Assembly (NCBI GenBank): GCA_019912395.1 | Contig: JAIOIH010000042.1 | Location: 62,001-126,000 of the forward strand | Direction: 5' to 3' | Length of the DNA: 64,000 nt | From: Flavobacteriales bacterium | Lineage (GTDB): Bacteria; Bacteroidota; Bacteroidia; Flavobacteriales_F; PHOS-HE28 | Shown here: positions 7,316 to 56,210 of the stretch, one piece after another | Layout: each line of letters starts with the position of its first letter | Numbering within the stretch: position 1 is the first letter of the stretch | The notes under the pieces: generated by a model | Told to the model about the DNA's origin: nothing | Database searches by the model: none | What the model saw: the letters and a program-made list of their open reading frames with translations, nothing else | Program-made: the position numbers and the translations under genes

Positions 7316-7440
7316 CTATTTTATTATTGCCGCATGTGAGAGCAAAAGCCTTGCCAATAAAGATAATTCAGCAATTATCAGGCTGTTTCGGCCCACTTCC
7401 TCGATCTAACGAGGGACCCCAATTCCTTCGACGAACCGAT

Positions 7441-9524: not shown

Positions 9525-9540
9525 GGGGTTCGGGTCGGCG

Positions 9541-9548
9541 CGAAGATA
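9541..9548 (-). promoter_or_regulatory. -7 promoter element (TATCTTCG) of msrC
   Basis: Reading the minus strand, TATCTTCG lies 16 nt upstream of the msrC start and fits the TAnnTT(C/T)G form used repeatedly in this window. A convincing -33 TTG was not found. Confidence 0.4.
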
Positions 9549-9653
9549 CCGGAGCCGCCGTGCAGGCATGGCCGCCTTGGACCCCGCCCGTTCGCCCGTG
9601 GCGGAATTTCCACGCGGAACTGCGGCAGCCAAGTCCCACCTTTGCGCCGTACC

Positions 9654-10559
9654 ATGACCGAGCCCCGGAATTCCGACAGCCAGCGACGCAAGGCCAAGCG
9701 CAAGCAGTTGATGCGCAAGCTGCGGAACAAGTACCGCGCGGTGCTCATCAATGAATCCACGTACGAGGAGCGCTTCAGCTTCCGGCTTTCGCGGATCAAT
9801 GTGATCCTCCTGGCGGTGGCGCTTTTCATCGTGAACGCGCTGTTCGTTTCCGCCCTTATCGTCTTCACGCCACTGAAGGAGTACATCCCCGGATACTCCG
9901 ATCAGAAAGTCAAGTTCAATGCCTATCGCGCCATGGTCACCGCCGATTCGCTGGACCAGGCCATGGCGATCCGGGATGCCTACATCGATAACCTGCGGAA
10001 CGTGCTGAGCGGGAATTTGCCCGCCGATAGCATCACCCTCACCGTGCCCACGATAAAGGCACCCGCCCCAGCGGACCTTCAGCCCTCCACGGCGGACAGT
10101 CTGATGCGGGAGAAGGTTCGCGCCGAAGAGGCCTTCAGCGTACATGCCACGGGTACGGCAGCCACCTTGGAGCGTCTCGGCCTGCCGGGCCTGCTGTTCT
10201 TCCCACCGATCCGTGGCGTGGTCACCAGCACCTTCAATGCCAGCGAGGGGCATTTCGGCATCGATATCGTCACCAAGGCCGATGAGGCCGTGAAAGCCTG
10301 CCTCGATGGTACGGTGATCCTCGCCAGTTGGACCAGCGATGCCGGCTATGTGATCCAGGTGCAGCACAGCCTCGATCTGGTGAGCGTGTACAAGCACAAC
10401 GCCGTGCTGCTGAGGAAGACAGGCGACCCTGTAAAGGCGGGCGAGGCCATCGCCATCGTGGGTAACAGTGGCGAGTTCACCAGCGGGCCGCACCTCCACT
10501 TCGAACTTTGGTCCGGCGGAAAGGCCGTGGACCCGCAGACATACATCGGCTTCAAGTGA
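9654..10559 (+). CDS. M23 family membrane-anchored metallopeptidase (LytM/gamma-clan)
   Basis: A 301-residue protein. The N-terminus is rich in Arg/Lys, a single membrane segment lies near residues 49-72, and a periplasmic linker leads to a C-terminal M23 domain. Zinc and catalytic motifs are present: GHFGIDI and HLHFELW (280-286). The family cleaves peptidoglycan cross-bridges or regulates amidases in the periplasm. The ATG at 9654 is chosen because the upstream in-frame sequence is antisense to msrC and CACCTTTG (a near -7 box) sits 9 nt before it. The stop TGA overlaps the ATG of the GH3-like gene. Confidence 0.87.
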   Translation: MTEPRNSDSQRRKAKRKQLMRKLRNKYRAVLINESTYEERFSFRLSRINVILLAVALFIVNALFVSALIVFTPLKEYIPGYSDQKVKFNAYRAMVTADSLDQAMAIRDAYIDNLRNVLSGNLPADSITLTVPTIKAPAPADLQPSTADSLMREKVRAEEAFSVHATGTAATLERLGLPGLLFFPPIRGVVTSTFNASEGHFGIDIVTKADEAVKACLDGTVILASWTSDAGYVIQVQHSLDLVSVYKHNAVLLRKTGDPVKAGEAIAIVGNSGEFTSGPHLHFELWSGGKAVDPQTYIGFK

Positions 10560-41604: not shown

Positions 41605-42726
41605 ATGATCCACCGCACGCTGAAGGCCACCGCACTGCTCGTTGCTTGCCTGCTGCTCGGCAGTTGCAAGGTGGGCCGCTTCTTCATCTACAATTTTGCC
41701 GATACCAACGATCACCGCAAGTTCCCCTCACGGCCCCTGCCGACCTCACCGGAGCCGTTCCATTACGCGGAGGCCGCCACGGAAAAGGCACCGCGCACGA
41801 TCACTGCGGATGGAAAGGAGCTCGCATTCGATGCGTTCCTGGAGAAGTACAGGTCGGTGGCTTTTCTGGTGATCCAGCGGGACACCATCCTGTACGAGCG
41901 CTACTTCAAGGGCCATGACCCGGCGCATGTGCACACGTCCTTCTCCATGGCCAAGTCGGTGATGAGCATGCTGATCGGCTGCGCCATCGCGGACGGGATG
42001 ATCGCGGACGTGGACCAACCGGTCACGGACCTCATTCCGGAACTACGCGAGAACGGCTTCGGCAAGGTGACCGTGGAACACCTGCTGCAAATGACCAGCG
42101 GGCTGAAGTTCAATGAGAGCTATTCGAACCCTTTCGGCGATGCCGCCACCTTCTACTATGGGCGTCGCCTGTACCAAAGCATGGCGAGGATGAAGTTGAA
42201 GGGTCCGCCGGGAGAGCACTTTGAATACCAGAGCGGGAGCAGCCAGTTGCTCGGCTGGGTGCTGGAGCGCGCATTGCAAAAGGCCGGTGACCCCCGCACC
42301 ATCACGGCATACGCCAACGACAAGCTCTGGGCGCCCTTGGGCATGGAATTCCCGGCCTCCTGGAGCATCGACCGCAAGGAGGGCGGCATCGAGAAGACCT
42401 TCTGCTGCATCAACGCACCGGCCCGGGACTTCGCGAAGCTCGGTTCGCTCTATCTGCACGCGGGTGAATGGCGGGGAAAGCAGCTGGTCCCGAAGGAATG
42501 GGTGGCCCGGAGCACGCGCGTGGACACCGCCAACGGCAGTGCCTGGTACTACCAATACCAATGGTGGCTGCCCTCGCGGGAAGGGGACTTCCAGGCCAAG
42601 GGGATCCTTGGGCAATACATCTACGTGGACCCGGCGCGGGAGCTGGTGATGGTGCGGCTGGGCACCAACCACGGCAAGGTGGACTGGACCTCCGTGCTGC
42701 GCAGCTTGGCCAAGGCCTACCCCTGA
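41605..42726 (+). CDS. Serine hydrolase (beta-lactamase/PBP-like) lipoprotein
   Basis: A 373-residue lipoprotein with lipobox LLLGSC (Cys21). The SxxK catalytic motif is S114-M-A-K117, the second motif is YQS in HFEYQSGSSQLLGW, and YYQYQWWLPS lies near the C-terminus, where the third element is usually found. The family (class C beta-lactamase/esterase EstB type) includes carboxylesterases and peptidases. A lipid-anchored periplasmic or surface location is inferred; the substrate is unknown. It appears to be a single-gene unit before the suf promoter. Confidence 0.83.
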   Translation: MIHRTLKATALLVACLLLGSCKVGRFFIYNFADTNDHRKFPSRPLPTSPEPFHYAEAATEKAPRTITADGKELAFDAFLEKYRSVAFLVIQRDTILYERYFKGHDPAHVHTSFSMAKSVMSMLIGCAIADGMIADVDQPVTDLIPELRENGFGKVTVEHLLQMTSGLKFNESYSNPFGDAATFYYGRRLYQSMARMKLKGPPGEHFEYQSGSSQLLGWVLERALQKAGDPRTITAYANDKLWAPLGMEFPASWSIDRKEGGIEKTFCCINAPARDFAKLGSLYLHAGEWRGKQLVPKEWVARSTRVDTANGSAWYYQYQWWLPSREGDFQAKGILGQYIYVDPARELVMVRLGTNHGKVDWTSVLRSLAKAYP

Positions 42727-42783
42727 AGGGCCGGGCCGGAACCCCGGGGCGATGTGCCACTTGCCGGGGAAGATCTCGGGGCA

Positions 42784-42814
42784 TTGTCCGACCTTTCAAT
42801 GCTTCGTACCTTTG
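42784..42814 (+). promoter_or_regulatory. Promoter of sufAB
   Basis: TTG (42784-42786), 20 nt, then TACCTTTG (42807-42814): a complete match to the Bacteroidota -33/-7 consensus and one of the two best promoters in the window. Confidence 0.72.
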
Positions 42815-42821
42815 TGGCCAT

Positions 42822-42842
42822 TATTTAGACGACTTCTAAATA
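42822..42842 (+). promoter_or_regulatory. Perfect palindromic operator in the sufAB leader
   Basis: TATTTAGA-N5-TCTAAATA is a perfect 8-bp inverted repeat lying at about +1 to +22 relative to the predicted start, immediately downstream of the -7 box. A repressor bound here would block initiation. Its AT-rich form and place before Fe-S assembly genes suggest an iron- or Fe-S-responsive regulator (Fur or Rrf2/IscR family), which is inference. Confidence 0.6.
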
Positions 42843-42853
42843 GCAGGGAGAAC

Positions 42854-43180
42854 ATGATCAAGGTGAGCAACGAGGCAAAACAGGAATTCACCAAGCTGCT
42901 CGGCACGGAGGGCCGGGGGCCGCAGCACTTCGTGCGCGTGGGCGTAAAGGGCGGCGGCTGCAGCGGCCTCTCCTACGACCTGGTCTTCGACGACACCATG
43001 AAGGACGGCGACAAGGTGTTCGAGGACAACGGCGTGAAGGTGGTGGTGGACAAGAAGAGCCTGCTCTACCTGCTCGGCACCACGCTGGACTTCAGTGGCG
43101 GCCTCAACGGCAAGGGCTTTCAGTTCGTGAACCCCAATGCAAGCCGGACCTGCGGCTGCGGGGAGAGCTTCAGTATCTGA
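42854..43180 (+). CDS. sufA: Fe-S cluster assembly scaffold/A-type carrier SufA
   Basis: A 108-residue HesB/IscA-family protein with the three conserved cysteines: C36 in GGGCSG, and C100 and C102 in TCGCGESF. A-type carriers receive [2Fe-2S] or [4Fe-4S] clusters from SufBCD and deliver them to apoproteins. AGGGAG is a good ribosome-binding site 5 nt before the ATG. A promoter and palindromic operator precede it, and sufB follows after a 126-bp hairpin-containing gap. Confidence 0.9.
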   Translation: MIKVSNEAKQEFTKLLGTEGRGPQHFVRVGVKGGGCSGLSYDLVFDDTMKDGDKVFEDNGVKVVVDKKSLLYLLGTTLDFSGGLNGKGFQFVNPNASRTCGCGESFSI

Positions 43181-43184
43181 TTTC

Positions 43185-43300
43185 ACCACGGAGGCACGGA
43201 GAAATCCCGAATGAAAACCGCCAAGACGCTAAGCACGCCAAGAAATCCATCTTGTCTGCCTTCAGACTTTGCGCTCTTTGCGTCTTTGCGGTAAAGAATT
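43185..43300 (+). repeat. Intergenic hairpin repeat between sufA and sufB
   Basis: ACCGCCAAGACGCTAAG (43217-43233) pairs with CTTTGCGTCTTTGCGGT (43276-43292) at 15 of 17 positions. The preceding CACCACGGAGGCACGGAG (43186-43203) matches a segment near 30764 at all but one position. The element could attenuate readthrough or stabilise the sufA transcript. Confidence 0.65.
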
Positions 43301-43306
43301 GAGCTT

Positions 43307-44755
43307 ATGGCACAGGACAGCAACGAGATCCTCCACGAAGTAGCCAACAAGGAATACGAGTTCGGCTTCGTCACGGACATTGAGAGCGAGATGGCCCCCA
43401 AGGGGCTCTCCGAGGACACCGTGCGCTTTATCAGCGCGAAGAAGAACGAGCCGGAATGGCTGCTGGAGTGGCGCTTGGCCGCGTACCGGAACTGGCTGAA
43501 AATGGTGGAGCCCACCTGGGCCTTGGTGAACTATCCCGCCGTGGACTTCCAGGATGCCTACTACTACAGCGCGCCCAAGAAGAAGCCCACGCTCAACAGC
43601 CTGGACGAGGCCGATCCCGAGCTGATCAAGACCTTTGAGAAGCTGGGCATTTCGCTCCAGGAGCAAAAGCGATTGGCCGGCGTGGCCGTGGACGTGGTGT
43701 TCGACAGCGTGAGCGTGAAGACCACGTTCCAGTCGGCGCTCAAGGAGAAGGGCATCATCTTCAGCAGCTTCAGCGACGCGGTGCAGAACCACCCGGACCT
43801 GGTGCGCAAATACCTGGGCACCGTGGTGCCTCCGGGAGACAATTTCTACGCGGCGCTCAACAGCGCGGTGTTCAGCGACGGCAGCTTCTGCTACATCCCG
43901 CCGGGCGTGCGCTGCCCCATGGAACTGAGCACCTACTTCCGCATCAATTCCGCCAACACGGGCCAGTTCGAGCGCACGCTGTTGATCGCCGACGAAGGTG
44001 CCTACGTGAGCTACCTCGAAGGCTGCACGGCCCCCATGCGCGACGAGAACCAGATGCACGCCGCAGTGGTGGAGCTGATCGCCATGAAGGACGCCGAGAT
44101 CAAGTACAGCACCGTGCAGAACTGGTACCCCGGGGACGCGGACGGCGTGGGCGGCGTGTACAATTTCGTCACCAAGCGCGGGATCTGTCTCGGGGACCGC
44201 AGCAAGATCAGCTGGACGCAGGTGGAGACCGGCAGCGCGATCACGTGGAAGTACCCCAGCTGTGTGCTGAAGGGCGACAACAGCGTGGGCGAGTTCTACA
44301 GCGTGGCCCTCACCAAGTTCAGGCAGCAGGCCGATACGGGCACCAAGATGACCCACATCGGCAAGGGCACCAAGAGCACCATCATCAGCAAGGGCATCAG
44401 TGCCGGCCGGAGCAACAACAGCTATCGCGGCCTGGTGAAGATCGGCAAGGGCGCCAAGGGTGCGCGCAACTTCAGCCAGTGCGATTCACTCCTGCTCGGC
44501 GACCGCTGCGGCGCACACACCTTCCCCTACATCGAAAGCGAGAACCCGAGCGCCATGGTGGAGCACGAAGCCACCACCAGCAAGATCGGCGAGGACCAGT
44601 TGTTCTACCTCAACCAGCGCGGCATCCCGCCGGAGAAGGCGGTCTCCCTGATCGTGAACGGCTACTGCAAGGACGTGCTGAACCAGCTGCCGATGGAATT
44701 CGCGGTGGAGGCGCAGAAGTTGCTTGCGGTGAGCTTGGAGGGGAGCGTGGGGTAG
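43307..44755 (+). CDS. sufB: Fe-S cluster assembly protein SufB
   Basis: A 482-residue SufB with the typical N-terminus ([20 protein letters not shown]), the beta-helix core ([20 protein letters not shown], then [20 protein letters not shown]) and C-terminal [20 protein letters not shown]. SufB with SufC and SufD forms the scaffold that builds Fe-S clusters from SufS-derived sulfur. Unusually, the next genes are a two-component system: sufC, sufD and sufS do not follow and are not in the window. Confidence 0.95.
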
Positions 44756-44818
44756 GACCATGTTGGTCGTTCCGATGTGCTGCAACGGATAAGATCATTA
44801 GGGGCACTCTCTTCTCTC

Positions 44819-44853
44819 TTCAGGATCCGAACAGGATCACCGACATAGCTTGC
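44819..44853 (+). promoter_or_regulatory. Response-regulator operator/promoter a (own gene)
   Basis: Half-sites TTCAGGATC (44819-44827) and AACAGGATC (44830-44838) are direct repeats spaced 11 bp. TAGCTTGC (44846-44853), a degenerate -7 box, follows 7 nt later and 4 nt before the regulator ATG. The geometry places the repeats over the -33 region, as for activation by an OmpR-type dimer. Confidence 0.68.
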
Positions 44854-44857
44854 AGCC

Positions 44858-45538
44858 ATGAAAGTGCTGCTCATCGAGGACGAAGCGGAGTTACGGCGCT
44901 CCATTCGCGGCTACTTGCAGGACGAAGGCCACTTGGTGGAATCGGCGAATGACTTTCCCTCCGCCATGGAGAAAGCGCAGCTGCATGCATACGATGCCGT
45001 GCTAGTGGACATCACGCTTCCGAAGGGGAACGGGCTGGACATCGTGCGCGCGATGCGCAAGGCGAACAACGCGAGCGGCATCATCATCATTTCCGCGAAG
45101 GGCTCGCTGGACGACAAGGTGCTCGGCCTGGACCTCGGTGCCGATGATTACCTGCCCAAGCCGTTCCACCTGCCGGAACTCGTGGCGCGGCTGCGGGCAC
45201 TGGTGCGCCGCAAGCAGGCCGCAGGAAGCGCGGCGATCACCGTCGGGAAATTGCGAATGGTCCCTGAAGACAAACTAGTGGAAGTGGATGGAGTGCCCGT
45301 GGACTTGACCGTCACGGAATTCGACCTGTTGCTTTTCCTTGTGGTGAACAAGGACCGCGTGCTTTCGCGCAGCGCCATTTTGGAACATGTTTGGGGTGAC
45401 CTTGCTGAACGCTTGGATCGGGATGACTTTCTCTATGCGCACATCAAGAACCTGCGGAAGAAGCTGGCGGACCATGGTGGTGCGGAGTTGATCAAGACCG
45501 TTTACGGCATCGGTTATCGCCTAAGTGATCGCGCATGA
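44858..45538 (+). CDS. OmpR-family two-component response regulator
   Basis: A 226-residue regulator. The receiver has acidic residues E7/D8/E9, phosphoacceptor D51 in AVLVDITLP, switch residue S79 and K101 in YLPKPF. The winged-helix DNA-binding domain spans about 125-225 (VDLTVTEFDLLLFLVVNKDR, SAILEHVWGD, VYGIGYRLSD). It overlaps the kinase gene by 4 bp (ATGA). Its promoter carries the same 11-bp-spaced direct repeat found before four other transcription units downstream, so autoregulation and control of the neighbourhood are likely. OmpR-family dimers bind just such direct repeats. Confidence 0.92.
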   Translation: MKVLLIEDEAELRRSIRGYLQDEGHLVESANDFPSAMEKAQLHAYDAVLVDITLPKGNGLDIVRAMRKANNASGIIIISAKGSLDDKVLGLDLGADDYLPKPFHLPELVARLRALVRRKQAAGSAAITVGKLRMVPEDKLVEVDGVPVDLTVTEFDLLLFLVVNKDRVLSRSAILEHVWGDLAERLDRDDFLYAHIKNLRKKLADHGGAELIKTVYGIGYRLSDRA

Positions 45539-46782
45539 AACTGCTGCAACGCACCGCGCTGTACCAAGCCCTGTTGGCCATCCCCATGGTGGTGCTGGGC
45601 ACGGGCATCGGCTATGGCCTGGTGCGCCATACGGTGACGCAGGAGGTGGAGGAGCAGTTGGAGAACCATGCGGAGCTGTTGCAAAAGCAGTTGCGTGCAG
45701 GTGGAACAATAGCGGCTTTTTCCGCGCCTGACGTGCTGGTGCACATCACGCCCGGGTCCGTCGCGGAAGTGCAGTTCTCCGATACCGTGATCTACAATAT
45801 ACTGGAGGCAGAGGACATCCCGTGGCGGGTGGGCCGCTTTCGCGCAACGATGCCGGACGGCAGCACGGCGACCATCACCATAGGCCGCTCGCAATTGGAA
45901 ACGGACGAGCTCGTGTTCGGCATCGCCCTCAGCATCGCCGCCGTGCTGGTGCTGTTCACGCTGTGTACCCTGGTGCTCTTCCGCTGGCTCTCCGCGCGCT
46001 TGTGGCGGCCGTTTTATGCGAACCTGCTGGTCATGGAGTACTTCCGCCCGGACGGCCCTTCGCCCCCGTTGGCTGGTTCCAACGTGGATGAATTCCGCGG
46101 CATGACGCGTGCGCTGGACGACATGATGGCCAACATGCGCCGGGACTTCACCGCGCAAAAGCGCTTTACCGAACAGGCCGCGCACGAGCTGCGCACGCCG
46201 CTCGCGATCCTGCGTGGAAGGCTGGACCAACTGATCCAATCACCCGCGATGGGCGAACGCGAGGCCGACGCGATCCAAGGCATGTACACGGCCGCGGAAC
46301 GGATGGGCCGCACCATCACCGACATGCTGCTCTTGGCCAAGATCGGTGAAGGCGGAACTCCTGCGGAGGACGTGGACTGGAAGCGCAGCATCCGTGAGGA
46401 ACTGGAATTGCTGAAGGACCTGATCATGCAGCAAGGTCTCTCTGTGAAGATCACCGAAGAGGAGCGCTGCGGGATCCAGCTACCGCCCATGCAAGCGCAG
46501 ATTCTCATGTCCAACCTGCTGCGCAATGCGGTGCAGCATAATGTGCAGGACGGGTCGATCACCATCACCACCAAGCGCGATGCGATCACCGTTAGCAACA
46601 GCGGCGACGCGCTTCCCGTGGACCCCGCCACGCTGTTCGAGCGCTTCGCCAAGGGCGATCCGTCCAGCGCTTCCGCAGGTCTCGGCCTTTCCATGGTGAA
46701 GGAGATCGCGGAGCGGAACGGGCTTGTTGCGGCGTACACTTTTGAGAATGGGATGCATGTGCTTTCCGTCCATAAGGGCTGA
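45535..46782 (+). CDS. Sensor histidine kinase
   Basis: A 415-residue kinase. Membrane segments near 10-30 and 128-150 flank a periplasmic sensor of about 95 residues (VHITPGSVAEVQFSDTVIYN). Then come a HAMP-like linker, the phosphoacceptor H217 in EQAAHELRTPLAILRGRLD, and an HATPase domain with N box NLLRNAVQHN, a short G1 region and G2 box SAGLGLSMVKEI. It is coupled to the response regulator by ATGA. The signal is unknown; the associated genes suggest envelope or outer-membrane stress. Confidence 0.9.
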   Translation: MKLLQRTALYQALLAIPMVVLGTGIGYGLVRHTVTQEVEEQLENHAELLQKQLRAGGTIAAFSAPDVLVHITPGSVAEVQFSDTVIYNILEAEDIPWRVGRFRATMPDGSTATITIGRSQLETDELVFGIALSIAAVLVLFTLCTLVLFRWLSARLWRPFYANLLVMEYFRPDGPSPPLAGSNVDEFRGMTRALDDMMANMRRDFTAQKRFTEQAAHELRTPLAILRGRLDQLIQSPAMGEREADAIQGMYTAAERMGRTITDMLLLAKIGEGGTPAEDVDWKRSIREELELLKDLIMQQGLSVKITEEERCGIQLPPMQAQILMSNLLRNAVQHNVQDGSITITTKRDAITVSNSGDALPVDPATLFERFAKGDPSSASAGLGLSMVKEIAERNGLVAAYTFENGMHVLSVHKG

Positions 46783-46797
46783 CCACTTTCGTCCAAG

Positions 46798-46831
46798 TTC
46801 AGGATCTCGACAGGATCAAGAAGTTGCTTTG
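46798..46831 (+). promoter_or_regulatory. Response-regulator operator/promoter b (COG4705-like gene)
   Basis: Half-sites TTCAGGATC (46798-46806) and GACAGGATC (46809-46817), 11 bp apart, then after 6 nt TTGCTTTG (46824-46831) as -7 box. The start codon of the membrane protein is 46 nt further on. Confidence 0.68.
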
Positions 46832-46877
46832 TCCTACCTCGGTCGAGCCGATTGGCCCGATCCAAAAAGGGATCAAC

Positions 46878-47645
46878 ATGAACAAGGAACTATTAAACAG
46901 GGTCGCTAGTCTTGGCATCCTGTTCTGGGTCGTCAAAATAGTTTCGACAACGGTTGGCGAAACGGCGGCGGATTATGTTTCGGTCAACCTGAATCTTGGC
47001 TTATCATATACAATGGTCCTCATGGGTGTGATCACCCTTTTGGTCGTCATTTGGAACTTTAGGCAGAAGCGATATTTCCCACCTTCTTACTGGTCATTGA
47101 TCGTAATGATGAGCATTGAAGGAACGTTGATCACGGATCTCCTTGTGGAAAGCACGGGCGTCTCCTTGCTGGTCCTGGATGTGGTCTTCGCCCTCGCCAT
47201 GGTGCTGGTATTCGTCCTTTGGCACAGGAAGGAGCACAGCCTCTCCATTCATGAAATAAACAATGACAGCAGGGAAAAATTCTATTGGATCATCGTCCTT
47301 ACCACATTTGCATTGGGTACCGGTGTCGGCGATACCGTGTCCGAATTCTTGAGCGTGGGCTATCTGTACTCGCTGATCATCTTTGGCGCGATCTTCATAC
47401 TGGCCGGTGTGCTGTACTACTTCAAGACCATCAGTTCCGTTCTGGCATTCTGGATCGCGTTCATCGTTACCCGGCCCATTGGCGCTTCACTGGGCGATCT
47501 GCTCATACAAGACCCGAAAGATGGTGGACTTGGCATTTCCACAGCCGTAGTAAATGTTGTCTTCTTCGTTGTGATCATTGCATCCGTGGCTTATCTGACG
47601 GTAAGGCAGTCGCAAGAGGGTTCGACAGAGCTGGCGGGGTCGTAG
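46878..47645 (+). CDS. COG4705-like polytopic membrane protein
   Basis: A 255-residue protein with about seven membrane helices and internal duplication: WVVKIVSTTVGETAADYVSV near the N-terminus, LGTGVGDTVSEFLSVGYLYS in the second half and RPIGASLGDLLIQDPKDGGL near the end. Repeated Gly-Glu/Asp pairs inside membrane segments are characteristic of this uncharacterised family, often found next to two-component systems. A transport or sensing role is inference. ATG at 46878 is chosen over 46824, because the latter lies in the promoter. Confidence 0.75.
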   Translation: MNKELLNRVASLGILFWVVKIVSTTVGETAADYVSVNLNLGLSYTMVLMGVITLLVVIWNFRQKRYFPPSYWSLIVMMSIEGTLITDLLVESTGVSLLVLDVVFALAMVLVFVLWHRKEHSLSIHEINNDSREKFYWIIVLTTFALGTGVGDTVSEFLSVGYLYSLIIFGAIFILAGVLYYFKTISSVLAFWIAFIVTRPIGASLGDLLIQDPKDGGLGISTAVVNVVFFVVIIASVAYLTVRQSQEGSTELAGS

Positions 47646-47667
47646 TATGGGCCAACAGGAGGATCCG

Positions 47668-47701
47668 TGCAAGATCCACACGGGATCACGTTGTACTCTT
47701 G
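47668..47701 (+). promoter_or_regulatory. Response-regulator operator/promoter c (PagL-like gene)
   Basis: Half-sites TGCAAGATC (47668-47676) and CACGGGATC (47679-47687), 11 bp apart, then after 6 nt TACTCTTG (47694-47701), 5 nt before the ATG at 47707. This is the weakest match of the five in sequence, but its spacing is exact. Confidence 0.58.
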
Positions 47702-47706
47702 GGCCA

Positions 47707-48909
47707 ATGTTCTATTGTCCAACGACAGCTCGTCTCTTTGTCGCCATTGCATTTTTCGTGCAATTCGATCAGTTCGCCATAGCACAGACAAGTGGGGCGG
47801 ACACGACGGACTACATCAACCACTGGTTCATTGAACCTTCAGCCCGATCGGGGTATGTCTTCCCGACGAACTCCTTCCTTCGCGGAAGCAATCTGGAGGG
47901 TGAATCCATTGGCTCGTACAATAGCATCAGCATAAAGGCCGGTGTGCAGACCTTGGATGATCGGCCTTGGGTGCTTCATTTCGCACACCCGACGATCGGG
48001 TTCGGGGTGAATGTGGTGCAATTCAATGAATCCGATGAATTGGGCACCCCCATCGCCTTGTTCGGCTTTCTGAATGGTCCGTTCAAGCGTTGGCGAAGGG
48101 TCTCCCTTGATTACGAGATCGCACTCGGTTTCGCGTTCAACTGGAAACCGTTCGACCCGGTGAACAACCCCGATAACGTATCCATCGGTGCGAAGGAAAG
48201 CGCTTATGTGGACCTTGGTGTGCAAGCATCCTTTGCCGTGACCGATCGCCTGTACGCGAACGCCGGGTTCAACGTCACCCATTATTCCAACGGTGCGCTA
48301 AGAAAGCCGAACCAAGGGGTGAACATGATAGCACCTGAGATCGGCCTGCGCTATGACCTGTACAAGGACGGGCCCGTATCTCCATCCACCGGCCATCGGT
48401 CTGTATTCCACCCGTCCACGGACCTGGACATCGCGGTATTCGGTGGTTCCCAGAATGTGATCTACGACAGTTTGAACGTGGAACTGATCGAGAAATACGA
48501 AGGCGTGAATTACTTGGCGGTGGGGATCCAGGCCACGGTCTCGCGCCATTTCGCTTTCAAGAGCAAATTGGGTGTCGGATTTTCAGCGGATTACAATGGA
48601 GCGCATGATGCCCAGGTCAGCGTGGCGAACGGCGAGGTCGAAACAGTGCGAAGTCCGTTCCATGAGAAATTGCAGCTCAGCATTTATCCATCCTATGAGT
48701 TTGTGATCAATAAGACCTCGATCTTGGTCCAGCCATCCTTCTATGTGGCCCGGACCAATGCAAGCGGGCAAACCCCGGTGTTCTACCAACGGCTGGGGAT
48801 CCGCCAAACCATTAGGCCTTGGCTCTTCGTCGGAATGAACTTGCGCGCATACCAGTTGCATGTCTCCGAATTCTTGGAATGGAACATTGGATACAGGTTC
48901 CATCGGTAA
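47707..48909 (+). CDS. PagL-like acyloxyacyl hydrolase/lipid A deacylase family outer-membrane protein
   Basis: A 400-residue protein with signal peptide (about 1-27, ending AIAQ) and beta-barrel-like alternation to a C-terminal aromatic end (WNIGYRFHR). The central motif FNVTHYSNGALRKPNQGVNM carries H192 and S194, matching the His-x-Ser of PagL-type lipid A 3-O-deacylases, with E211 a possible third residue. The barrel is larger than PagL (about 170), as in Bacteroidota acyloxyacyl hydrolase family members. It probably modifies LPS lipid A in the outer membrane. The start at 47707 is preferred; the upstream extension would translate the operator. Confidence 0.77.
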   Translation: MFYCPTTARLFVAIAFFVQFDQFAIAQTSGADTTDYINHWFIEPSARSGYVFPTNSFLRGSNLEGESIGSYNSISIKAGVQTLDDRPWVLHFAHPTIGFGVNVVQFNESDELGTPIALFGFLNGPFKRWRRVSLDYEIALGFAFNWKPFDPVNNPDNVSIGAKESAYVDLGVQASFAVTDRLYANAGFNVTHYSNGALRKPNQGVNMIAPEIGLRYDLYKDGPVSPSTGHRSVFHPSTDLDIAVFGGSQNVIYDSLNVELIEKYEGVNYLAVGIQATVSRHFAFKSKLGVGFSADYNGAHDAQVSVANGEVETVRSPFHEKLQLSIYPSYEFVINKTSILVQPSFYVARTNASGQTPVFYQRLGIRQTIRPWLFVGMNLRAYQLHVSEFLEWNIGYRFHR

Positions 48910-48938
48910 GGGGATAAGCGAGGGTAGAGGAGGTCAAG

Positions 48939-48972
48939 TTCAAGATCCGCACAGGATCGATGCATTGGTTCG
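48939..48972 (+). promoter_or_regulatory. Response-regulator operator/promoter d (tiny ORF)
   Basis: Half-sites TTCAAGATC (48939-48947) and CACAGGATC (48950-48958), 11 bp apart, then after 6 nt TTGGTTCG (48965-48972). An alternative -7 box, TGCCTTTG (48976-48983), lies 6 nt before the small ORF at 48990. Confidence 0.6.
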
Positions 48973-48989
48973 GGCTGCCTTTGCGCCCA

Positions 48990-49091
48990 ATGCGGATCCA
49001 TCAGTGCTGGAATGCAGAGTCCGAACTATACGAGGCCGTAGAAAAAACCGTACTCGCGAAACACGCGAGCGCCAGGGGGGCAACTGAATAG
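48990..49091 (+). CDS. Possible 33-residue small protein in the regulon
   Basis: ATG at 48990 to TAG at 49089-49091 encodes MRIHQCWNAESELYEAVEKT followed by 13 residues. There is no visible ribosome-binding site and no recognised family. It is listed only because an operator/promoter of the regulon lies directly upstream and no other gene uses it. A regulatory RNA, or an operator left over from a lost gene, are equal alternatives. The surrounding gap 48910-49250 otherwise holds operators d and e and a duplicated GCTGGAATGCAGA (49006-49018 and 49128-49140). Confidence 0.25.
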   Translation: MRIHQCWNAESELYEAVEKTVLAKHASARGATE

Positions 49092-49193
49092 GTCTTGTTC
49101 CCTGTAATTCCAACAATGACCATGCACGCTGGAATGCAGAACCAAGCCGACGGGCGGACCAGGTGGTATGAGAGGCCGCTACCCCCGCACAAC

Positions 49194-49227
49194 TTCAGGA
49201 TCTCGACAGGATCAAGAGGTTGCTTTG
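49194..49227 (+). promoter_or_regulatory. Response-regulator operator/promoter e (PepSY-like gene and efflux operon)
   Basis: Half-sites TTCAGGATC (49194-49202) and GACAGGATC (49205-49213), 11 bp apart, then after 6 nt TTGCTTTG (49220-49227). It is nearly identical to site b over more than 30 bp. The PepSY-like start is 23 nt downstream. Confidence 0.68.
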
Positions 49228-49250
49228 CATTGAACCAACGCGAACGACCC

Positions 49251-49718
49251 ATGAAAATCCCATTGATGATCCTGTCCATTCTGGCCCTCAGCGCCAGTGC
49301 CTGCGGCCAAAAAGTGAGCGAGGCCGATGTGCCGCAACCGGTGAAGGCCGCGTTCACAAAGCAGTTCCCGAAGGCCGAACATGCCAAGTGGGAAATGGAG
49401 ACGAAGACCGAGTACGAGGTGAACTTCAAGCAAGGTGCTGAATCGATGAGCGCCACTTACGGCAACACCGGCGAATGGATGGAGACCGAGAAGGACCTGA
49501 AGTTGGCCGCCCTGCCCGGACCCGTACGTGCTTCCATTGCCCAGAATTACGCGGATCAGAAGCTCGGCGATATCTCCCACGTGGACAGCCCCAAGGGACA
49601 GACCTACGAAGTGGACATGGAGAAGGGTGAAAGATCCATGGAGGTCGTCTTCTCCGCCGATGGCAAAGTGCTGAAGGAAAAGATGGAGGAAGGTGACAAA
49701 GACAACGACAACGACTGA
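49251..49718 (+). CDS. PepSY-like periplasmic lipoprotein
   Basis: A 155-residue exported protein with signal MKIPLMILSILALSASAC (lipobox-like, Cys18). The mature part has two similar PepSY-like halves: PQPVKAAFTKQFPKAEHAKW ... YEVNF, and LPGPVRASIAQNYADQKLGD ... YEVDM ... VVFSADGKVL. Proteins of this type occur beside two-component systems in Bacteroidota and may sense or buffer envelope stress. The Asp/Asn-rich tail is DKDNDND. It is transcribed from operator/promoter e, and only 24 bp separate it from the TolC-like gene. Confidence 0.8.
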   Translation: MKIPLMILSILALSASACGQKVSEADVPQPVKAAFTKQFPKAEHAKWEMETKTEYEVNFKQGAESMSATYGNTGEWMETEKDLKLAALPGPVRASIAQNYADQKLGDISHVDSPKGQTYEVDMEKGERSMEVVFSADGKVLKEKMEEGDKDNDND

Positions 49719-49742
49719 GCTCCGCGCCAGTGAATTGAACAG

Positions 49743-51032
49743 ATGGACATGACGCTGGCGAACCCCGCCCCGAACATCGCACGATGTCTCGGGGCGGGTG
49801 CGTTCAGGTCCGCCCTGGTCGCATTGCTTTTTGCAAGTACGCCATTGCTCCATGCGCAGTCGCGTAGCCTGGACTTCTACCTGCAACTGGCGGAGACGAA
49901 CAGCCCTGTGCTGAAAGACCAGGCCTACCGACGCGCAGCGTTGACCTTGGACAGTTCCGAAGTGCGCGCGGCTTATGGGCCGCAAGTAGGCGGCAACGGG
50001 CAGTTCCTCTACGCGCCGAACGGAGCGCATTGGGGCTATGATCCCGCGATCACCAATGGTGGACTGTATTCCGCTGTCGTCGGTGCGTCCGTTCCGCTCT
50101 TCACCGGTGGTCGGAAGCAAACGGCCTTGGACTCGGTGGCGTTACGCGGGAACGCCATTCAACTGGGCACCGAAACGGCCTTGCTGGACTTGCGACAACG
50201 TATCACCGACCAGTACATCACCACCTTCGCGGACCAGCGCTCATTGGCCGCGGCTGAGCAGCGCAGTCGCCTGTTGGATGAGGAAGAGTCCGTGCTATCC
50301 CGTTTGGCCGGGCAGGGGATCTACCAGGAGGTCGATGTGATGAACCTGCGGGTGAACGCGCAGGCGCAACGCATCGCGGCGAGCAAGGCGAAGGCGCTTC
50401 TGCGGAACGACCTGCTGGTGTTGAACACGCTTTGCGGCAGTGCGGACACTACGTTGGTGGCGCTTGCCCCGTTGGAGATGGCCCCGCCCGTCGCCTTCGA
50501 TCCTACAGCCTCGCCCAACCTCAAACAGTTCGCCGTGGACAGCCTCGCGAATGACATCGCCGACCGCCAAGTGGACCAGAACTATCGCGCTCGGCTCAGT
50601 GCCGTGGGCGATGCCGGACTGAATGCCGTCGCCATCAGCGCTGTGCCGAACCGCTTCGGCGCCAGTGCGGGCCTCAACCTCAGCGTGCCGATCTACGATG
50701 GCAACAAACGCCGTTCGCAACACGCCCGCATCGCCCTGCGTGAAAAGAGCCGAACGGCCTATCAGGATTTTTACGCCGACCAGCTCGCCTTACGCCATGC
50801 ACAACTTGCCCGGGCCTTGGTCAACGCCGACTCCCTGCTCGCCGGAACGCAACACCAATCCGCCGACGAGGAGAAACTCATCGACCTTTACCGCGTGGAA
50901 CTGGAACATGGGCTCGTGCGCCTCACGGACCTTTTCCTCGCGTTGGAAAACCACGCGCGCACCACCACCGACTTGATACAAGCGGAAGCCGACCGTTCCC
51001 GCATCATCAACGCGCTCATCCATCTGCAATGA
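49743..51032 (+). CDS. TolC-family outer-membrane efflux protein
   Basis: A 429-residue outer-membrane factor. The signal peptide is FRSALVALLFASTPLLHAQ after a variable N-terminus, followed by two TolC-like repeats rich in coiled-coil helices (LDFYLQLAETNSPVLKDQAY; GLNLSVPIYDGNKRRSQHAR). It would form the channel of the following RND pump. The first 20 codons contain a near-perfect 16-bp hairpin (49764-49798), which is odd for a signal-peptide region. No better in-frame start exists downstream. It probably belongs to the operon started at promoter e. Confidence 0.85.
   Translation: MDMTLANPAPNIARCLGAGAFRSALVALLFASTPLLHAQSRSLDFYLQLAETNSPVLKDQAYRRAALTLDSSEVRAAYGPQVGGNGQFLYAPNGAHWGYDPAITNGGLYSAVVGASVPLFTGGRKQTALDSVALRGNAIQLGTETALLDLRQRITDQYITTFADQRSLAAAEQRSRLLDEEESVLSRLAGQGIYQEVDVMNLRVNAQAQRIAASKAKALLRNDLLVLNTLCGSADTTLVALAPLEMAPPVAFDPTASPNLKQFAVDSLANDIADRQVDQNYRARLSAVGDAGLNAVAISAVPNRFGASAGLNLSVPIYDGNKRRSQHARIALREKSRTAYQDFYADQLALRHAQLARALVNADSLLAGTQHQSADEEKLIDLYRVELEHGLVRLTDLFLALENHARTTTDLIQAEADRSRIINALIHLQ
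49764..49798 (+). terminator. Strong GC-rich stem-loop at the start of the TolC-like gene
   Basis: CCCGCCCCGA (49764-49773) pairs with TCGGGGCGGG (49789-49798), and ACATCG with CGATGT inside, leaving a two-base loop and one bulged C. There is no T tract. It may end or attenuate the upstream PepSY-like transcript or limit translation of the efflux genes. Confidence 0.5.
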
Positions 51033-51122
51033 TGAATGCCATCCAACGATCCACAGAAAATGCAAATGCTAAAACCACAGACTGTGTGCGGCCATAGCGC
51101 TTCGCGACGGCGCGTTACGCAG

Positions 51123-52076
51123 ATGGACGCACATAGAACACATGGCATGTGCATTCCGTCAGTTGTGGCATTGATGGCCGCATTGCTGGTGGGAAGCCTT
51201 CCGCTTGCGGGATGCGGCGCGGGAAACAACGCGACCGGCACCGGCCAGTCCGAAGGCCGCACGCCGGTCACCATTACGCATGTGGTGAACGGCCCGATCG
51301 AAAGCACCGTGGTGCTGAATGCCACGGCGCGTTTCCTGCGGAAGAACGCCGTGCGGTCCACCATCACCGGAAGAGTGGAGCGAAGCTTCATCGCCTTGGG
51401 CGATCACGTCTCGGCGGGACATCCCTTGTATGTGTTGCGCACCAAGGAGGCCGAAGCGCTCGGCGCGATGGCCGCGCGCGACAGCAGCTTCCGCATCGGC
51501 GGGTCCATCACCATCCATGCACCCGCCAGCGGCATCGTGACGCAGATAGACAAGCAGCAGAACGACTACGTGAGCGATGGCGACCAACTCGCCGTGATCG
51601 CCGACGCAAGCAGTTCCGTCTTCGTGATGGACGTGCCCTATGAGCGGGACGCCAACGCACGCATCGGTAGCGCATGCACGATCCTGCTGCCCGATTCCAG
51701 CACCGTGCAAGGCGTGATCACCACACGGCTTTCCATGATGGACGGCGCTTCGCAAACGCAAGGCTTTGTGGTGAAACCAGCTGGTTCGCGCGTGTTTCCC
51801 GAAGGCCTCGCAGGCACCGTGCGTCTCACCGTGGACCGCCATGCCGACGCGCAGATACTCCCCGCGAACGCCGTGCTTGGCAACGAGGAGATGACCCACT
51901 TCTGGGTGATGCGCCTGGCGAATGACAGCACAGCGGTGAAGGTGCCAGTGAAGCGCGGCATCGTAACGCAGGACAGTGTGGAAGTGCTGAAACCGCGCTT
52001 CGACCCCGGCGACCGCTTCCTGCTCACCGGCGGCTACGGACTTTCGGACACCGCCAATGTGGTCGTTACACATTGA
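51123..52076 (+). CDS. RND efflux periplasmic adaptor (membrane fusion protein)
   Basis: A lipoprotein adaptor of about 317 residues. The start at 51123 (MDAHRTHGMC) or 51147 gives a signal ending LPLAGC; the frame is open from 51036. The barrel-sandwich/lipoyl halves are seen in RSTITGRVERSFIALGDHVS and ITIHAPASGIVTQIDKQQND. A beta-barrel domain and a membrane-proximal domain follow (ILPANAVLGNEEMTHFWVMR). The helical hairpin is very short, which is unusual among HlyD/CusB-type adaptors. It links the TolC-like channel to the RND pump, whose start lies 3 bp after the stop. Confidence 0.85.
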   Translation: MDAHRTHGMCIPSVVALMAALLVGSLPLAGCGAGNNATGTGQSEGRTPVTITHVVNGPIESTVVLNATARFLRKNAVRSTITGRVERSFIALGDHVSAGHPLYVLRTKEAEALGAMAARDSSFRIGGSITIHAPASGIVTQIDKQQNDYVSDGDQLAVIADASSSVFVMDVPYERDANARIGSACTILLPDSSTVQGVITTRLSMMDGASQTQGFVVKPAGSRVFPEGLAGTVRLTVDRHADAQILPANAVLGNEEMTHFWVMRLANDSTAVKVPVKRGIVTQDSVEVLKPRFDPGDRFLLTGGYGLSDTANVVVTH

Positions 52077-52079
52077 CCG

Positions 52080-55000
52080 ATGAAGGACTTCTTCGTCCGC
52101 TACAAGAACCCGGTGACCATGGTGTTGGCCGTGGTGCTGATGGGCGGCCTTTTCACCTACACCCGGTTGCAGTCGTCGCTTTTCCCGGAAGTCACCTTTC
52201 CGAAGGTGAAGGTGATCGCCGACAGCGGTCTGCAACCGGTGGGCAAGATGATGGTGACGGTGACGCGCCCGCTGGAGTCCGCGATCAAACGGGTGCCGGG
52301 CCTGATGACCGTGCGAAGCGTCACCGGTCGCGGCAGTTGCGAGATCAGCGCCTTCCTGGACTGGAACGCGGACATCGATCTCGCCAAACAGCAGATCATC
52401 TCCGCCACCGGCGCTGTGCGCAACGAGCTTCCGCCGGGCACCACCATCACCGTGGAGAAGATGGACCCGTCGATCCTGCCGGTGATGGGCTATGTGATCG
52501 GCGGCGGCGGCAAGAGCGCGATCGCGCTCAACCTCATCGCCGAGTACACCGTGCGCCCCTACCTCGCGCAGGTGGTGGGCGTAAGCGATGTGCGCACCAT
52601 CGGCGGGCGGAGGAAGGAGTACCGCATCACGCTGCGTCCCGAGGTGATGAGCGCCCTGCACATTGTGCCGGATACCATCAGCGCCGCACTCGCCCGCACC
52701 AATTTCCTCGGCAGCGATGGCTGGCTCTTCACCAACCATCGCATGTACCTCACGGTGACGGACGCGACGGTGGGCGCCTTGGACGAGCTGCGGGACCTGG
52801 TGATCGCCAACGATGGGAAGCGCATCGTCCGGCTGGGCGACATCAGCGAGGTTAGCGTGGAGGAGGAGCCGGCCTACACGCGGGTCAATGCCAATGGCAC
52901 CTCAGCGGTACTGGTGGCAGTGGTGAAGCAGCCCAATGCGAACCTCATCGACATCACGGACGGTGTGCAACAGCGCGTGAAGGAGCTGAACAACGGCCTG
53001 CTGCCCACAGGCGTGAAGCTCACCCCGTATTACGTGCAGGCCGATTTCGTGCGCGATTCCATCCGCAGTGTGCAGGACAGTCTGTGGATCGGACTGCTGC
53101 TGGCCATCGTGGTGGCGATGATCTTCCTGCGTTCATGGGGCTCCAGCTTGGTGCTGCTCGTCACCATACCGGTCACGCTTGCACTGTCGCTCGTCGTGAT
53201 GCACGTGATGGGGCACACGCTCAACATCATGACGCTCGGCGCGCTGGCGGCGGCCATCGCGCTCGTCATTGACGATGCCATCGTGGTGACCGAGCAGGTC
53301 CACCGCACGCACGAGGAATATCCGGGACGCTCCACCGGCGATCTCATCGGCGGATCCGTGCACTTTCTGCTGCCCGCGATGGTGGCTTCCTCGCTCAGCA
53401 CCATTGTCATCTTCCTCCCCTTCGTGCTGTTGAGCGGCGTGGCCGGCGCCTATTTCAAGGTGCTCGCGGACACGATGATCATCACCTTGACCTGTTCCTT
53501 CCTTGTTACCTGGATCGGCCTTCCGGTGGTCTACTTGCTGTTGTCAAAACGAACAACAGGGACCAAGGACGGGGCCGGACCGGCCGCTCCATCGCCGGAA
53601 CGGAAAAAGGAAACGAGCGGCAACTGGGTGCGCTGGTCCATACGCCGGCCCGTGCTGAGTTTCTGCTTCCTGGCGTTGATCGCCGTCCCCGCGTGGTTGG
53701 CCGCGCGACATCTGGCGACGGGCTTCCTGCCGGAGATGGACGAAGGCTCCATCGTGCTGGACTACAGCTCGCCGCCGGGCACCTCGCTGGAAGAGACGGA
53801 CCGCATGTTGCGCGAAGCCGAGAAGACTTTCGGGCAAGTGCCGGAGATCGCGAGCTACAGCCGCCGCACCGGTACGCAGATGGGCTTCTTCATCACCGAG
53901 CCGAACTACGGCGACTACCTCATCCAGCTGAAGAAGGGCCGAAAGCGCAGCAGCACCGAGGTGATCGACGATATCCGTCAGCGCTTCGAGGCCTCACAAC
54001 CGGCACTGCGCATCGACTTCGGGCAGGTGATCGGCGACATGCTCGGCGACCTGATGAGCAGCACACAGCCCATCGAGATCAAGGTCTTCGGCAACGACCA
54101 GCACCAACTGCAGGAGCTGGCGCGCCAAGTAGCGCATGTGGTGGAAGGCGTGCAAGGCACCGCGGACGTGTTCGACGGCATCGTGATCGCCGGGCCTGCG
54201 GTGGATGTGCGCGCGGACGACCAGGCCTTGGCGCGTCGGGGCCTTTCACCGCAGGACCTCGACGGGCAGTTGAGCCTGCAATTGCAAGGCATTGCCGCCG
54301 GGAATGTCTTCGAGCGCGAACTGGTGACGCCCGTGCGCATGGTGTACCCGAACGCCGCCAGCACCTCGCTCAACGACCTTGATCACGCGCGCATCTTCCT
54401 TCCGGGCGGACGCTTGGTCGCCGTGTCGCAGGTGGCCTCCATCCAGGTGAAGCCGGGCGAGGCGGAGATCGAGCGGGAGGACCTGCAGCCCATGGTGCCG
54501 GTGACGGCGCGCCTCAACGGTCGCGACCTGGGCAGCGTAATGAAGGACATCCAAGCGGGCATCCGGAAGAACATCGCGCTTCCGCAGGGCTACCACATCA
54601 CCTACGGCGGTGCCTTCCAGGAACAGCAGCGCAGCTTCCATGAACTGTTGATGATCCTCGGTTCCGCGAGCCTGCTCGTCTTCCTCGTGCTCCTCTTCTT
54701 CTTCCGCGACCTGCGGGCAGCACTGGTGATGCTGGGCATCGCGCTGTTCGGCGTCTGCGGCTGCATCCTCGCGCTTTTCATCACGGGCACACCGCTCAAC
54801 GTGGGCAGTTACACCGGCATCATCATGATCATCGGCATCATCGGTGAGAACGCCATCTTCACCTACCTACAATACGCGCACGACCGCAAGGAGCAGGGCG
54901 TGGACGATTCGCTCACGAACGCCATCGGCATACGCCTGCGCCCGAACCTGATGACCGCCCTCGGTGCCATTGCCGCGCTTTCGCCCATCGCCTTGGGCAT

Positions 55001-55145
55001 CGGCGCGGGCGCACAACTGCATCGGCCATTGGCCATCGCCGTCATCGGCGGATTCATCCTTGCGTTGCCGCTGCTGCTGATCGTATTGCCCAGCATGCTG
55101 CGGCTGGTGCATCGCTCAAAGCTGTCAGCGGAAATACCAACCTGA
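52080..55145 (+). CDS. RND-family efflux transporter permease
   Basis: A 1021-residue inner-membrane pump. The N-terminal TM1 begins VTMVLAVVLMGGLFTYTRLQ, followed by a periplasmic porter domain. TM4 contains the proton-relay pair in LVIDDAIVVTEQVHRTHEEY. A second half repeats the layout, beginning near residue 525 (RRPVLSFCFLALIAVPAWLA, FLPEMDEGSIVLDYSSPPGT) with GIIGENAIFTYLQYAHDRKE in TM10. GEAEIEREDLQPMVPVTARL resembles heavy-metal (CusA) pumps, but methionine relay residues were not traced, so metal versus hydrophobic substrate is open. It is the last gene of the PepSY-TolC-adaptor-pump operon. Confidence 0.9.
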   Translation: MKDFFVRYKNPVTMVLAVVLMGGLFTYTRLQSSLFPEVTFPKVKVIADSGLQPVGKMMVTVTRPLESAIKRVPGLMTVRSVTGRGSCEISAFLDWNADIDLAKQQIISATGAVRNELPPGTTITVEKMDPSILPVMGYVIGGGGKSAIALNLIAEYTVRPYLAQVVGVSDVRTIGGRRKEYRITLRPEVMSALHIVPDTISAALARTNFLGSDGWLFTNHRMYLTVTDATVGALDELRDLVIANDGKRIVRLGDISEVSVEEEPAYTRVNANGTSAVLVAVVKQPNANLIDITDGVQQRVKELNNGLLPTGVKLTPYYVQADFVRDSIRSVQDSLWIGLLLAIVVAMIFLRSWGSSLVLLVTIPVTLALSLVVMHVMGHTLNIMTLGALAAAIALVIDDAIVVTEQVHRTHEEYPGRSTGDLIGGSVHFLLPAMVASSLSTIVIFLPFVLLSGVAGAYFKVLADTMIITLTCSFLVTWIGLPVVYLLLSKRTTGTKDGAGPAAPSPERKKETSGNWVRWSIRRPVLSFCFLALIAVPAWLAARHLATGFLPEMDEGSIVLDYSSPPGTSLEETDRMLREAEKTFGQVPEIASYSRRTGTQMGFFITEPNYGDYLIQLKKGRKRSSTEVIDDIRQRFEASQPALRIDFGQVIGDMLGDLMSSTQPIEIKVFGNDQHQLQELARQVAHVVEGVQGTADVFDGIVIAGPAVDVRADDQALARRGLSPQDLDGQLSLQLQGIAAGNVFERELVTPVRMVYPNAASTSLNDLDHARIFLPGGRLVAVSQVASIQVKPGEAEIEREDLQPMVPVTARLNGRDLGSVMKDIQAGIRKNIALPQGYHITYGGAFQEQQRSFHELLMILGSASLLVFLVLLFFFRDLRAALVMLGIALFGVCGCILALFITGTPLNVGSYTGIIMIIGIIGENAIFTYLQYAHDRKEQGVDDSLTNAIGIRLRPNLMTALGAIAALSPIALGIGAGAQLHRPLAIAVIGGFILALPLLLIVLPSMLRLVHRSKLSAEIPT

Positions 55146-55232
55146 AAACTCCCAACGGCCAAAGCCGGGTCCGATGGAGAACTGTACCTTGTCGATCGAC
55201 GCGATCCCTTAAACCCATAAACGAAAAAGCAG

Positions 55233-55574
55233 ATGGCAACCTTCGAACTGTACACCGACAAGGCCGATCAATTCCGCTTTCGCCTGAAAGCCGGGAACGG
55301 CGAGATCATTCTGGCCAGCCAAGGCTACACCGCCAAGGATTCGGCATTGAACGGCATCGAGAGCGTGAAGACCAATGCATCCGACGATGCCAACTACGAG
55401 TGCAAGACCACGGATGCCGGTGCATCGTTCAACCTGTTGGCCGGCAACGGGCAAGTGGTGGGCACGAGCCAGGTGTACACCACGGAAGCCTCGCGTGACG
55501 GCGGCATCGAGAGCGTGAAGAAGAACGCCCCGATCGCCAATACCGTGGAGATACAGGCCAAGGAGGTCTCCTGA
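55233..55574 (+). CDS. YegP family (DUF1508) protein
   Basis: A 113-residue protein made of two DUF1508 repeats: FELYTDKADQFRFRLKAGNG EII...YTAKDSALNGIESVK and YECKTTDAGASFNLLAGNGQ VVG...YTTEASRDGGIESVK. The domain forms a small beta-rich dimer; its role is unknown. TACCTTG at 55185-55191 is a candidate -7 box about 40 nt upstream, so it is probably separate from the efflux operon. Confidence 0.85.
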   Translation: MATFELYTDKADQFRFRLKAGNGEIILASQGYTAKDSALNGIESVKTNASDDANYECKTTDAGASFNLLAGNGQVVGTSQVYTTEASRDGGIESVKKNAPIANTVEIQAKEVS

Positions 55575-55598
55575 GCCGGAGCATCATCGGGGCCTTCC

Positions 55599-56210
55599 TC
55601 AGCGCTTCGCGAAGCGCCCGCTGAACGAGCGGCCCGCCACGGTGCTTACCCGATAGGTGTACAGCCCCGCCGGGAGTTGCCGCACGGGCACGTCCACGGT
55701 GGGCCCGTTCACTCCGGTCAAGCGTACCACCAGCCTCCCCGACCCATCGAACACCGATAGGTCCAGCGGGGTGTTCGGTTTGGCATCCACCACCAGGGTG
55801 GCCACGTTGGAAGCGGGGTTCGGGAAGAAGCGTTGCTCGCTTGCGTTCAATTGCGCGAAGAACACGGATTTCACCGAGCTGTATCCATCGAAGCCCAACT
55901 TCAACCGGTAGAATGCCCTGCTGAGCTCCGGCGGCGAGGGATCGAACCAGGTGTAGGGCGTGGAGGCATCCGGGCTTCCGCAGATGCCCTGGATGGTGTG
56001 GACCACCGAGAAGTGGAGGCTGTCCGTGGAACGCTGCACTTCCTGGCCGTCGCAGGTGCTTCCGCCATGGATGGTCCAATTGACCAGGACGCCGTCCGGC
56101 AGTTCCGTCAACGCGTACGCGGAGAGGAACGGATGTTCCTGTGCGCACGCTTCCACCGGGCCGCTGATCGCGGCAAGCGAAAGGAGGAGGGTCGTGGTCC
56201 AATTGCGCAT
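55599..56210 (-). CDS. Small secreted protein with T9SS type A sorting domain
   Basis: A 203-residue protein. The start at 56210 gives the signal peptide MRNWTTTLLLSLAAISGPVE and AQ cleavage; longer upstream frames lack one. A short fibronectin-like domain follows (DGVLVNWTIHGGSTCDGQEV QRSTDSLHF ... AFYRLKLGFDGYS). Then comes a type A sorting domain (FFPNPASNVATLVVD ... LSVFDGSGRLV ... LPAGLYTYRVS) ending KR. Two Cys pairs probably form disulfides. The function is unknown. Confidence 0.8.
   Translation of the reverse strand: MRNWTTTLLLSLAAISGPVEACAQEHPFLSAYALTELPDGVLVNWTIHGGSTCDGQEVQRSTDSLHFSVVHTIQGICGSPDASTPYTWFDPSPPELSRAFYRLKLGFDGYSSVKSVFFAQLNASEQRFFPNPASNVATLVVDAKPNTPLDLSVFDGSGRLVVRLTGVNGPTVDVPVRQLPAGLYTYRVSTVAGRSFSGRFAKR
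55602..55617. terminator. Perfect palindrome at the end of the T9SS protein gene
   Basis: GCGCTTCGCGAAGCGC is a 16-bp perfect palindrome covering the last codons of the minus-strand gene and lying 28 bp after the YegP-like stop, so it may end both convergent transcripts. Confidence 0.4.

Follow-up and report, generated by a model that had tools for sequence, protein, structure and literature searches.

Described systems and the layout of the locus

In the pho box, head-to-tail half-sites at an 11-bp step replace the upstream promoter element. PorX of Porphyromonas gingivalis is not an OmpR-type regulator, and the PorXY system controls type IX secretion. In the AdeRS-AdeABC system of Acinetobacter, AdeR binds a direct repeat between the regulator and pump genes; this 10-bp repeat (AAGTGTGGAG, 11 bp start to start) occurs in a single intercistronic region (PMC11892822, PMC10052836). 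The arrangement of a regulator, a repeat and an RND pump is thus already known from AdeRS. The literature that we searched has little on OmpR-type operators in Bacteroidota.

The window analysed here is a 64,000-nt stretch from a Flavobacteriales bacterium (GTDB lineage Bacteria; Bacteroidota; Bacteroidia; Flavobacteriales_F; PHOS-HE28), corresponding to positions 62,001-126,000 of the forward strand of contig JAIOIH010000042.1 in assembly GCA_019912395.1. The locus runs in the order SufB, site 1, response regulator (RR), kinase, site 2, DUF347, site 3, PagL-like, site 4, site 5, PepSY-like, TolC, adaptor and RND permease; all of the window genes and sites whose coordinates follow lie on the plus strand. 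The RR (44858-45538) consists of a receiver (Response_reg PF00072, 1.7e-25) and a winged helix (Trans_reg_C PF00486, 3.7e-21), which, together with promoter-adjacent direct repeats about one helical turn apart, identify it as OmpR/PhoB-type. The sensor histidine kinase (45535-46782) scores 337.8 bits over its whole length against the PorY model NF052314; because this is under the curated cut-off of 350 bits, we call it PorY-like and not PorY. It is followed by a DUF347/COG4705-like membrane protein (46878-47645; PF03988, E 3e-46) and by a PagL-like outer-membrane protein (47707-48909; PF09411, E 2e-7). The latter exceeds the PF09411 cut-off of 23 with 31.6 bits, with only model positions 75-135 of 136 matched, and by this domain match its product is a predicted member of the lipid A 3-O-deacylase family. 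Farther on lie a PepSY-like protein with an N-terminal signal-like stretch (49251-49718; PF11396, E 2e-17) and then, in tandem, a TolC-family outer-membrane channel (49746-51032; PF02321), a periplasmic adaptor (51036-52076; HlyD/RND_mfp family match) and an RND efflux permease (52080-55145; PF00873, E 2e-192), the makeup of an RND tripartite efflux operon.

The locus shares with PhoB/OmpR operators such as the pho box its head-to-tail half-sites at 11 bp and, by Pfam, a winged-helix RR, but it has a -7 box instead of a -10 box, another half-site and a predicted leaderless regulator start. As in AdeRS-AdeABC, a two-component system adjoins an RND pump; unlike in AdeRS, there are five promoters, the presumed targets include PepSY-like, DUF347 and PagL-like genes, and the kinase is PorY-like. 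The likeness to PorXY lies in the kinase, whose closest family model is PorY, though its score is just below the cut-off. An OmpR-type partner and efflux-gene neighbours set the locus apart from PorXY, to which we do not assign it, and Pfam annotation revealed no T9SS genes after any of the five sites.

We propose, with considerable confidence, that the locus is a local autoregulated OmpR/PhoB-type regulon with a PorY-like kinase, driving the PepSY-like, DUF347, PagL-like and TolC-RND genes. The sites, their spacing and boxes, their uniqueness in the genome, their conservation and their recurrence across the class can be read directly in the DNA. In the mechanism that we envisage, the phosphorylated RR would bind two CAGGATC half-sites 11 bp (one helical turn) apart as a head-to-tail dimer. 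These sites would stand in for the -33 element, with 6-7 nt between them and a downstream -7 box of the Bacteroidota type, and the bound dimer would most likely recruit RNA polymerase in the manner of a PhoB-like activator complex. Site 1 would drive the RR and kinase genes in positive autoregulation, probably via a leaderless transcript, and the other sites would drive the DUF347, PagL-like and PepSY-TolC-MFP-RND genes. Binding by this RR and a role in efflux or envelope stress are what we infer from the sequence, and activation, as opposed to repression, is suggested by the geometry. Given the RND pump, the PagL-like protein and DUF347, for which a metal-transport function in Frankia has been proposed (PMC4531530), our guess is that the signal is envelope or toxic-compound stress.

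Five sites and their -7 boxes

The preliminary description had placed five CAGGATC pairs with 11-bp spacing at 44819, 46798, 47668, 48939 and 49194, each with a -7 box 6 nt further on (7 nt in the case of the first), and a motif scan confirmed these positions and gaps on the plus strand. The shared half-site requires one qualification, as the pair at 47668 is degenerate (CAAGATC/CGGGATC). Site 1 (TTCAGGATC-CG-AACAGGATC; 44819-44838) is the predicted operator of the RR promoter, which agrees with the claim, also borne out by the domain matches, of an OmpR-type regulator with a site before its own gene. Its box (TAGCTTGC; 44846-44853), of the TAnnTTGY form, begins 7 nt after the site, with the ATG 4 nt on. 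Site 2 (TTCAGGATC-TC-GACAGGATC; 46798-46817), upstream of DUF347, and site 5 (again TTCAGGATC-TC-GACAGGATC; 49194-49213), the candidate promoter of PepSY-TolC-MFP-RND, are both followed after 6 nt by TTGCTTTG (46824-46831 and 49220-49227, respectively). Site 3 (47657-47687) contains GAGGATC, CAAGATC and CGGGATC at 11-bp steps, the core pair occupying 47668-47687 and the third half-site, GAGGATC at 47659, standing 11 bp upstream of the pair; its box (TACTCTTG; 47694-47701) comes 6 nt after the site and 5 nt before the ATG, and the PagL-like mRNA is predicted to have a leader of about 1 nt. Site 4 (TTCAAGATC-CG-CACAGGATC; 48939-48958) has a weak box (TTGGTTCG; 48965-48972), likewise after 6 nt.

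Each box is 8 nt long and resembles TAnnTTTG, the -7 box of Bacteroidota sigma-A promoters, an assignment that agrees with its class-wide enrichment at a fixed offset; all are degenerate in the window. The RR box, TAGCTTGC in the window and in the congeners G042 and G020, fits TAnnTTGY, which is motif SM5, assigned to a probable alternative sigma factor (PMC9723704). The boxes of the other sites look like TAnnTTTG, so a different sigma factor may serve the first promoter.

A search of the 64-kb window for TTCAGGATCNNNACAGGATC, with as many as three mismatches allowed, returned the five sites and no others (shuffles: mean 0.10, maximum 2). Across the 4.13-Mb genome, CARGATCNNNNCRGGATC has five matches at zero mismatches, all of them here, on the plus strand only and within 4.4 kb, and its reversed control has 0; when one mismatch is allowed the count rises to 22 vs 1 for the control, and TTCARGATCNNNACRGGATC with up to three mismatches gives 64. 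Nearly all of the weaker matches outside the locus (about 25 loci whose context was inspected) fall within long ORFs, and at none of these inspected matches was a -7 box seen at the right spacing. Genome-wide, the motif is not as frequent away from promoters as at them, and the earlier claim of a regulon survives this check. The confinement of the exact sites to one locus argues for a local promoter set or regulon and not a dispersed one.

The promoters of sites 2 and 5 are identical at 36 of 38 positions (95% over 38 bp) and so look like copies of each other, not like independent sites. Such similarity would also be expected if the 38-bp element were a repeat of the dispersed or mobile kind that had been copied inside the locus and was devoid of regulatory meaning. 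This idea is scarcely credible, as the element is absent elsewhere in the genome and always precedes a -7 box, the conserved block stops at the end of that box, and unrelated families show the design again, with other half-sites.

The targets that had been named behind the sites were recovered for DUF347 (COG4705), the PagL-like gene and the PepSY-like gene leading into TolC-MFP-RND, but the tiny ORF said to follow site 4 found no support, there being no conserved ORF or RNA between sites 4 and 5. We rejected both a tiny ORF and a small RNA at this position because 45 congeners hold no conserved DNA there except a short dispersed hairpin repeat, and a small RNA also because folding was no better than that of shuffles (z 0.88). 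Rfam gave no match in window positions 42000-56000, and no conserved or recognisable target gene was identified between the two sites. The hairpin repeat is a short palindromic element, CTCGCG..CGCGAG (window 49052-49083), that comes after AAAAAACC and has several further copies in the same genome and in congeners. The gap after site 4 also holds an imperfect repeat, GCTGGAATGCAGA (window 48999-49020 and 49127-49147), which recombination may have left behind.

Class-wide promoter geometry

A scan of related genomes found the core of the locus kept in congeners and its promoter geometry across the class. To test for direct repeats at spacings 6 to 27, we took the DNA upstream of 77 RR homologues with about 38-100% identity. 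Spacing 11 was enriched with a z of 13.0 (23 sequences at 7/8 or better vs 2.0 expected), whereas none of the other spacings rose above z 2.3; once the own genus and homologues of less than 45% identity were left out, the z for spacing 11 was 9.8. All of these z-scores are inflated by the relatedness of the sequences. The class-wide half-site is approximately TTCAGAATT, and the window's CAGGATC is a G+C-rich form of it; 26 of the 77 upstream regions reach at least 13/18 to two copies vs 0.44 expected. The repeat is absent or unclear in several RR homologues, including the one beside DUF347 in G151.

Scores for the -7 box peak precisely 6 nt past the repeat, a position at which 14 of these 26 have at least a 5/6 match against a background of 1.2%. 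This distance bears on how the sites would act. They overlap the -33 region beside the -7 box, and a good -33 element is absent. Activators and repressors can both act in that region, and this RR might bind the sites mainly as repressor operators, with a dimer over -33 that blocks polymerase until the kinase signal relieves it. We consider such a role unlikely, since the fixed 6-nt gap and the poor -33 element match PhoB/OmpR activator geometry and the preference for exactly 6 nt holds class-wide. Activation by the bound dimer is accordingly the reading that we favour.

In 15 of the 26 RR homologues, 18-20 nt separate the end of the repeat from the ATG, and among all 77 the box starts at -12 from the ATG in 31% and at -13 in 20%, compared with 3.3% and 3.5% of 429 control ORFs. 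In Flavobacterium psychrophilum, the -7 box occupies -12 to -5 from the transcription start (PMC9723704). Taken together, these positions predict an RR transcript that starts on the ATG or right beside it. The RR mRNA is predicted to be leaderless at site 1 of the window, whose box lies so close to the ATG, and usually also across the class. A leaderless regulator mRNA would be a simple, testable oddity: for Flavobacterium psychrophilum, only 5.5% of the examined mRNAs are leaderless (PMC9723704).

When 390 genomes of the class were scanned for a composite 34-bp pattern, TTCAGAATT-N2-TTCAGAATT-N6-TAnnTTTG, at a tolerance of three mismatches, 59 matches appeared vs 1 for the reversed control, and 19 of the 59 lie within 5 kb of a homologous RR vs 0.05 expected. 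The class consensus was itself drawn from the DNA upstream of RR genes, which makes matches in that DNA partly circular; this does not apply to the 12 of the 19 that are not at the RR's own start. The RR is also enriched among genomes with a composite match (29/45, p about 1e-9). Genes downstream of the inspected matches encode PepSY-like proteins (3), DUF347 (1) and TonB-type outer-membrane barrels (2), and some matches fall within apparent secA reading frames or before unrelated genes. The sites in G151 lie ahead of DUF347 (one) and of a divergent outer-membrane barrel gene (another), not ahead of the RR. Tested as a set for the lag of 11, PepSY promoters outside the genus are not significant (z 1.4); single cases are clear.

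RR, kinase and DUF347 genes, mostly with PepSY and RND genes, occur together in G064, G045, G096 and G151, and the RR promoter repeat is present in the first three. These loci resemble the window in uniting the same gene families, some members being missing in some, but differ in their AT-rich half-sites of the TTCAGAATT or TTCCAAATT type. Based on these comparisons, we think it fairly probable that a promoter code holds across the class Bacteroidia, by which OmpR-type RRs with PorY-like kinases would regulate their own gene. The promoter would be leaderless and follow a fixed layout, in which a pair of half-sites 11 bp apart is succeeded by a 6-nt gap, the -7 box, 4-5 nt and the ATG. The same element would serve PepSY-like, DUF347, outer-membrane-barrel and RND genes, and the half-sites and recognition helices of paralogues would diverge together.

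The preliminary description knew of no account of this combination, and none was found in the literature searched, which covers subscription papers to a limited extent; the gene combination itself recurs in other families. Within that same literature and its limited subscription coverage, both the promoter code of the class and the leaderless start of the RR seem undescribed. If the code is true, the operators and targets of this regulator family could be read from sequence alone in many genomes, and paralogous regulator/half-site pairs would be available for learning a recognition code. It would also place PepSY-like and DUF347 proteins, families of obscure role, in a defined efflux/envelope response.

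Conservation in congeners and divergence of paralogues

In the genus sample of 45 genomes, an orthologous RR (84-85% identity) occurs in two congeners besides the own genome, G042 and G020, whose loci were found via the RR search. Before the RR, both have a degenerate site (3 mismatches) with TAGCTTGC 7 nt downstream; before PepSY-TolC-MFP they have a nearly perfect counterpart of site 5. In the alignment of the PepSY promoters, the conserved block runs from the start of the site to the end of the box, and the flanks are variable. PepSY directly follows the kinase in G042; in G020 a cation-efflux-family gene lies between them (L156, G020:C27, 10820-11383, minus strand), in the place of the window's DUF347 and PagL-like genes. 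The RR-kinase-site-PepSY-TolC-MFP-RND core is ancestral to the three congeneric loci. As DUF347 and the PagL-like gene stand between two near-identical promoter copies, they are probably later additions that came with a duplicated promoter.

Across the class, a kinase search returned only the window's own kinase at better than 1e-80. Against NF052314, the orthologous kinases score 311-319 and the paralogue and other-family homologues 416-458. The paralogue belongs to a second RR-kinase-PepSY cluster in the same genome (L159, G000:C6, about 7430-9940), which has the same geometry with TTCCC half-sites, as do its relatives in a dozen congeners.

With some 35-38 loose first-look candidates for RR homologues in the genome, the CAGGATC sites might belong to a different regulator, for example an OmpR-type paralogue, their adjacency to this RR being coincidental. 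That is very improbable, given that the closest paralogue found has a TTCCC-type site of its own, and that the exact CAGGATC sites occur at this locus only, once before the RR itself. The sites are also kept in the two congeners with an orthologous RR, and class-wide they are strongly tied to RRs of this family. The predicted recognition helix has Gln in RRs of the TTCCC cluster vs His in the CAGGATC and most CAGAATT types. Because the Gln-type RRs fall mostly in one clade, and three from other genera have an AGNAT-type site, co-evolution of recognition helix and half-site is only suggestive.

Close relatives of the window's DUF347 protein in G174 (78%) and G081 (67%) have neither the motif nearby nor an adjacent orthologous two-component system. 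In two other families, DUF347 lies beside or near an RND permease that is 56-58% identical to the window's (L235 in G151, 6766-11974, and L242 in G163), which suggests that DUF347 and pumps of this type are functionally connected.
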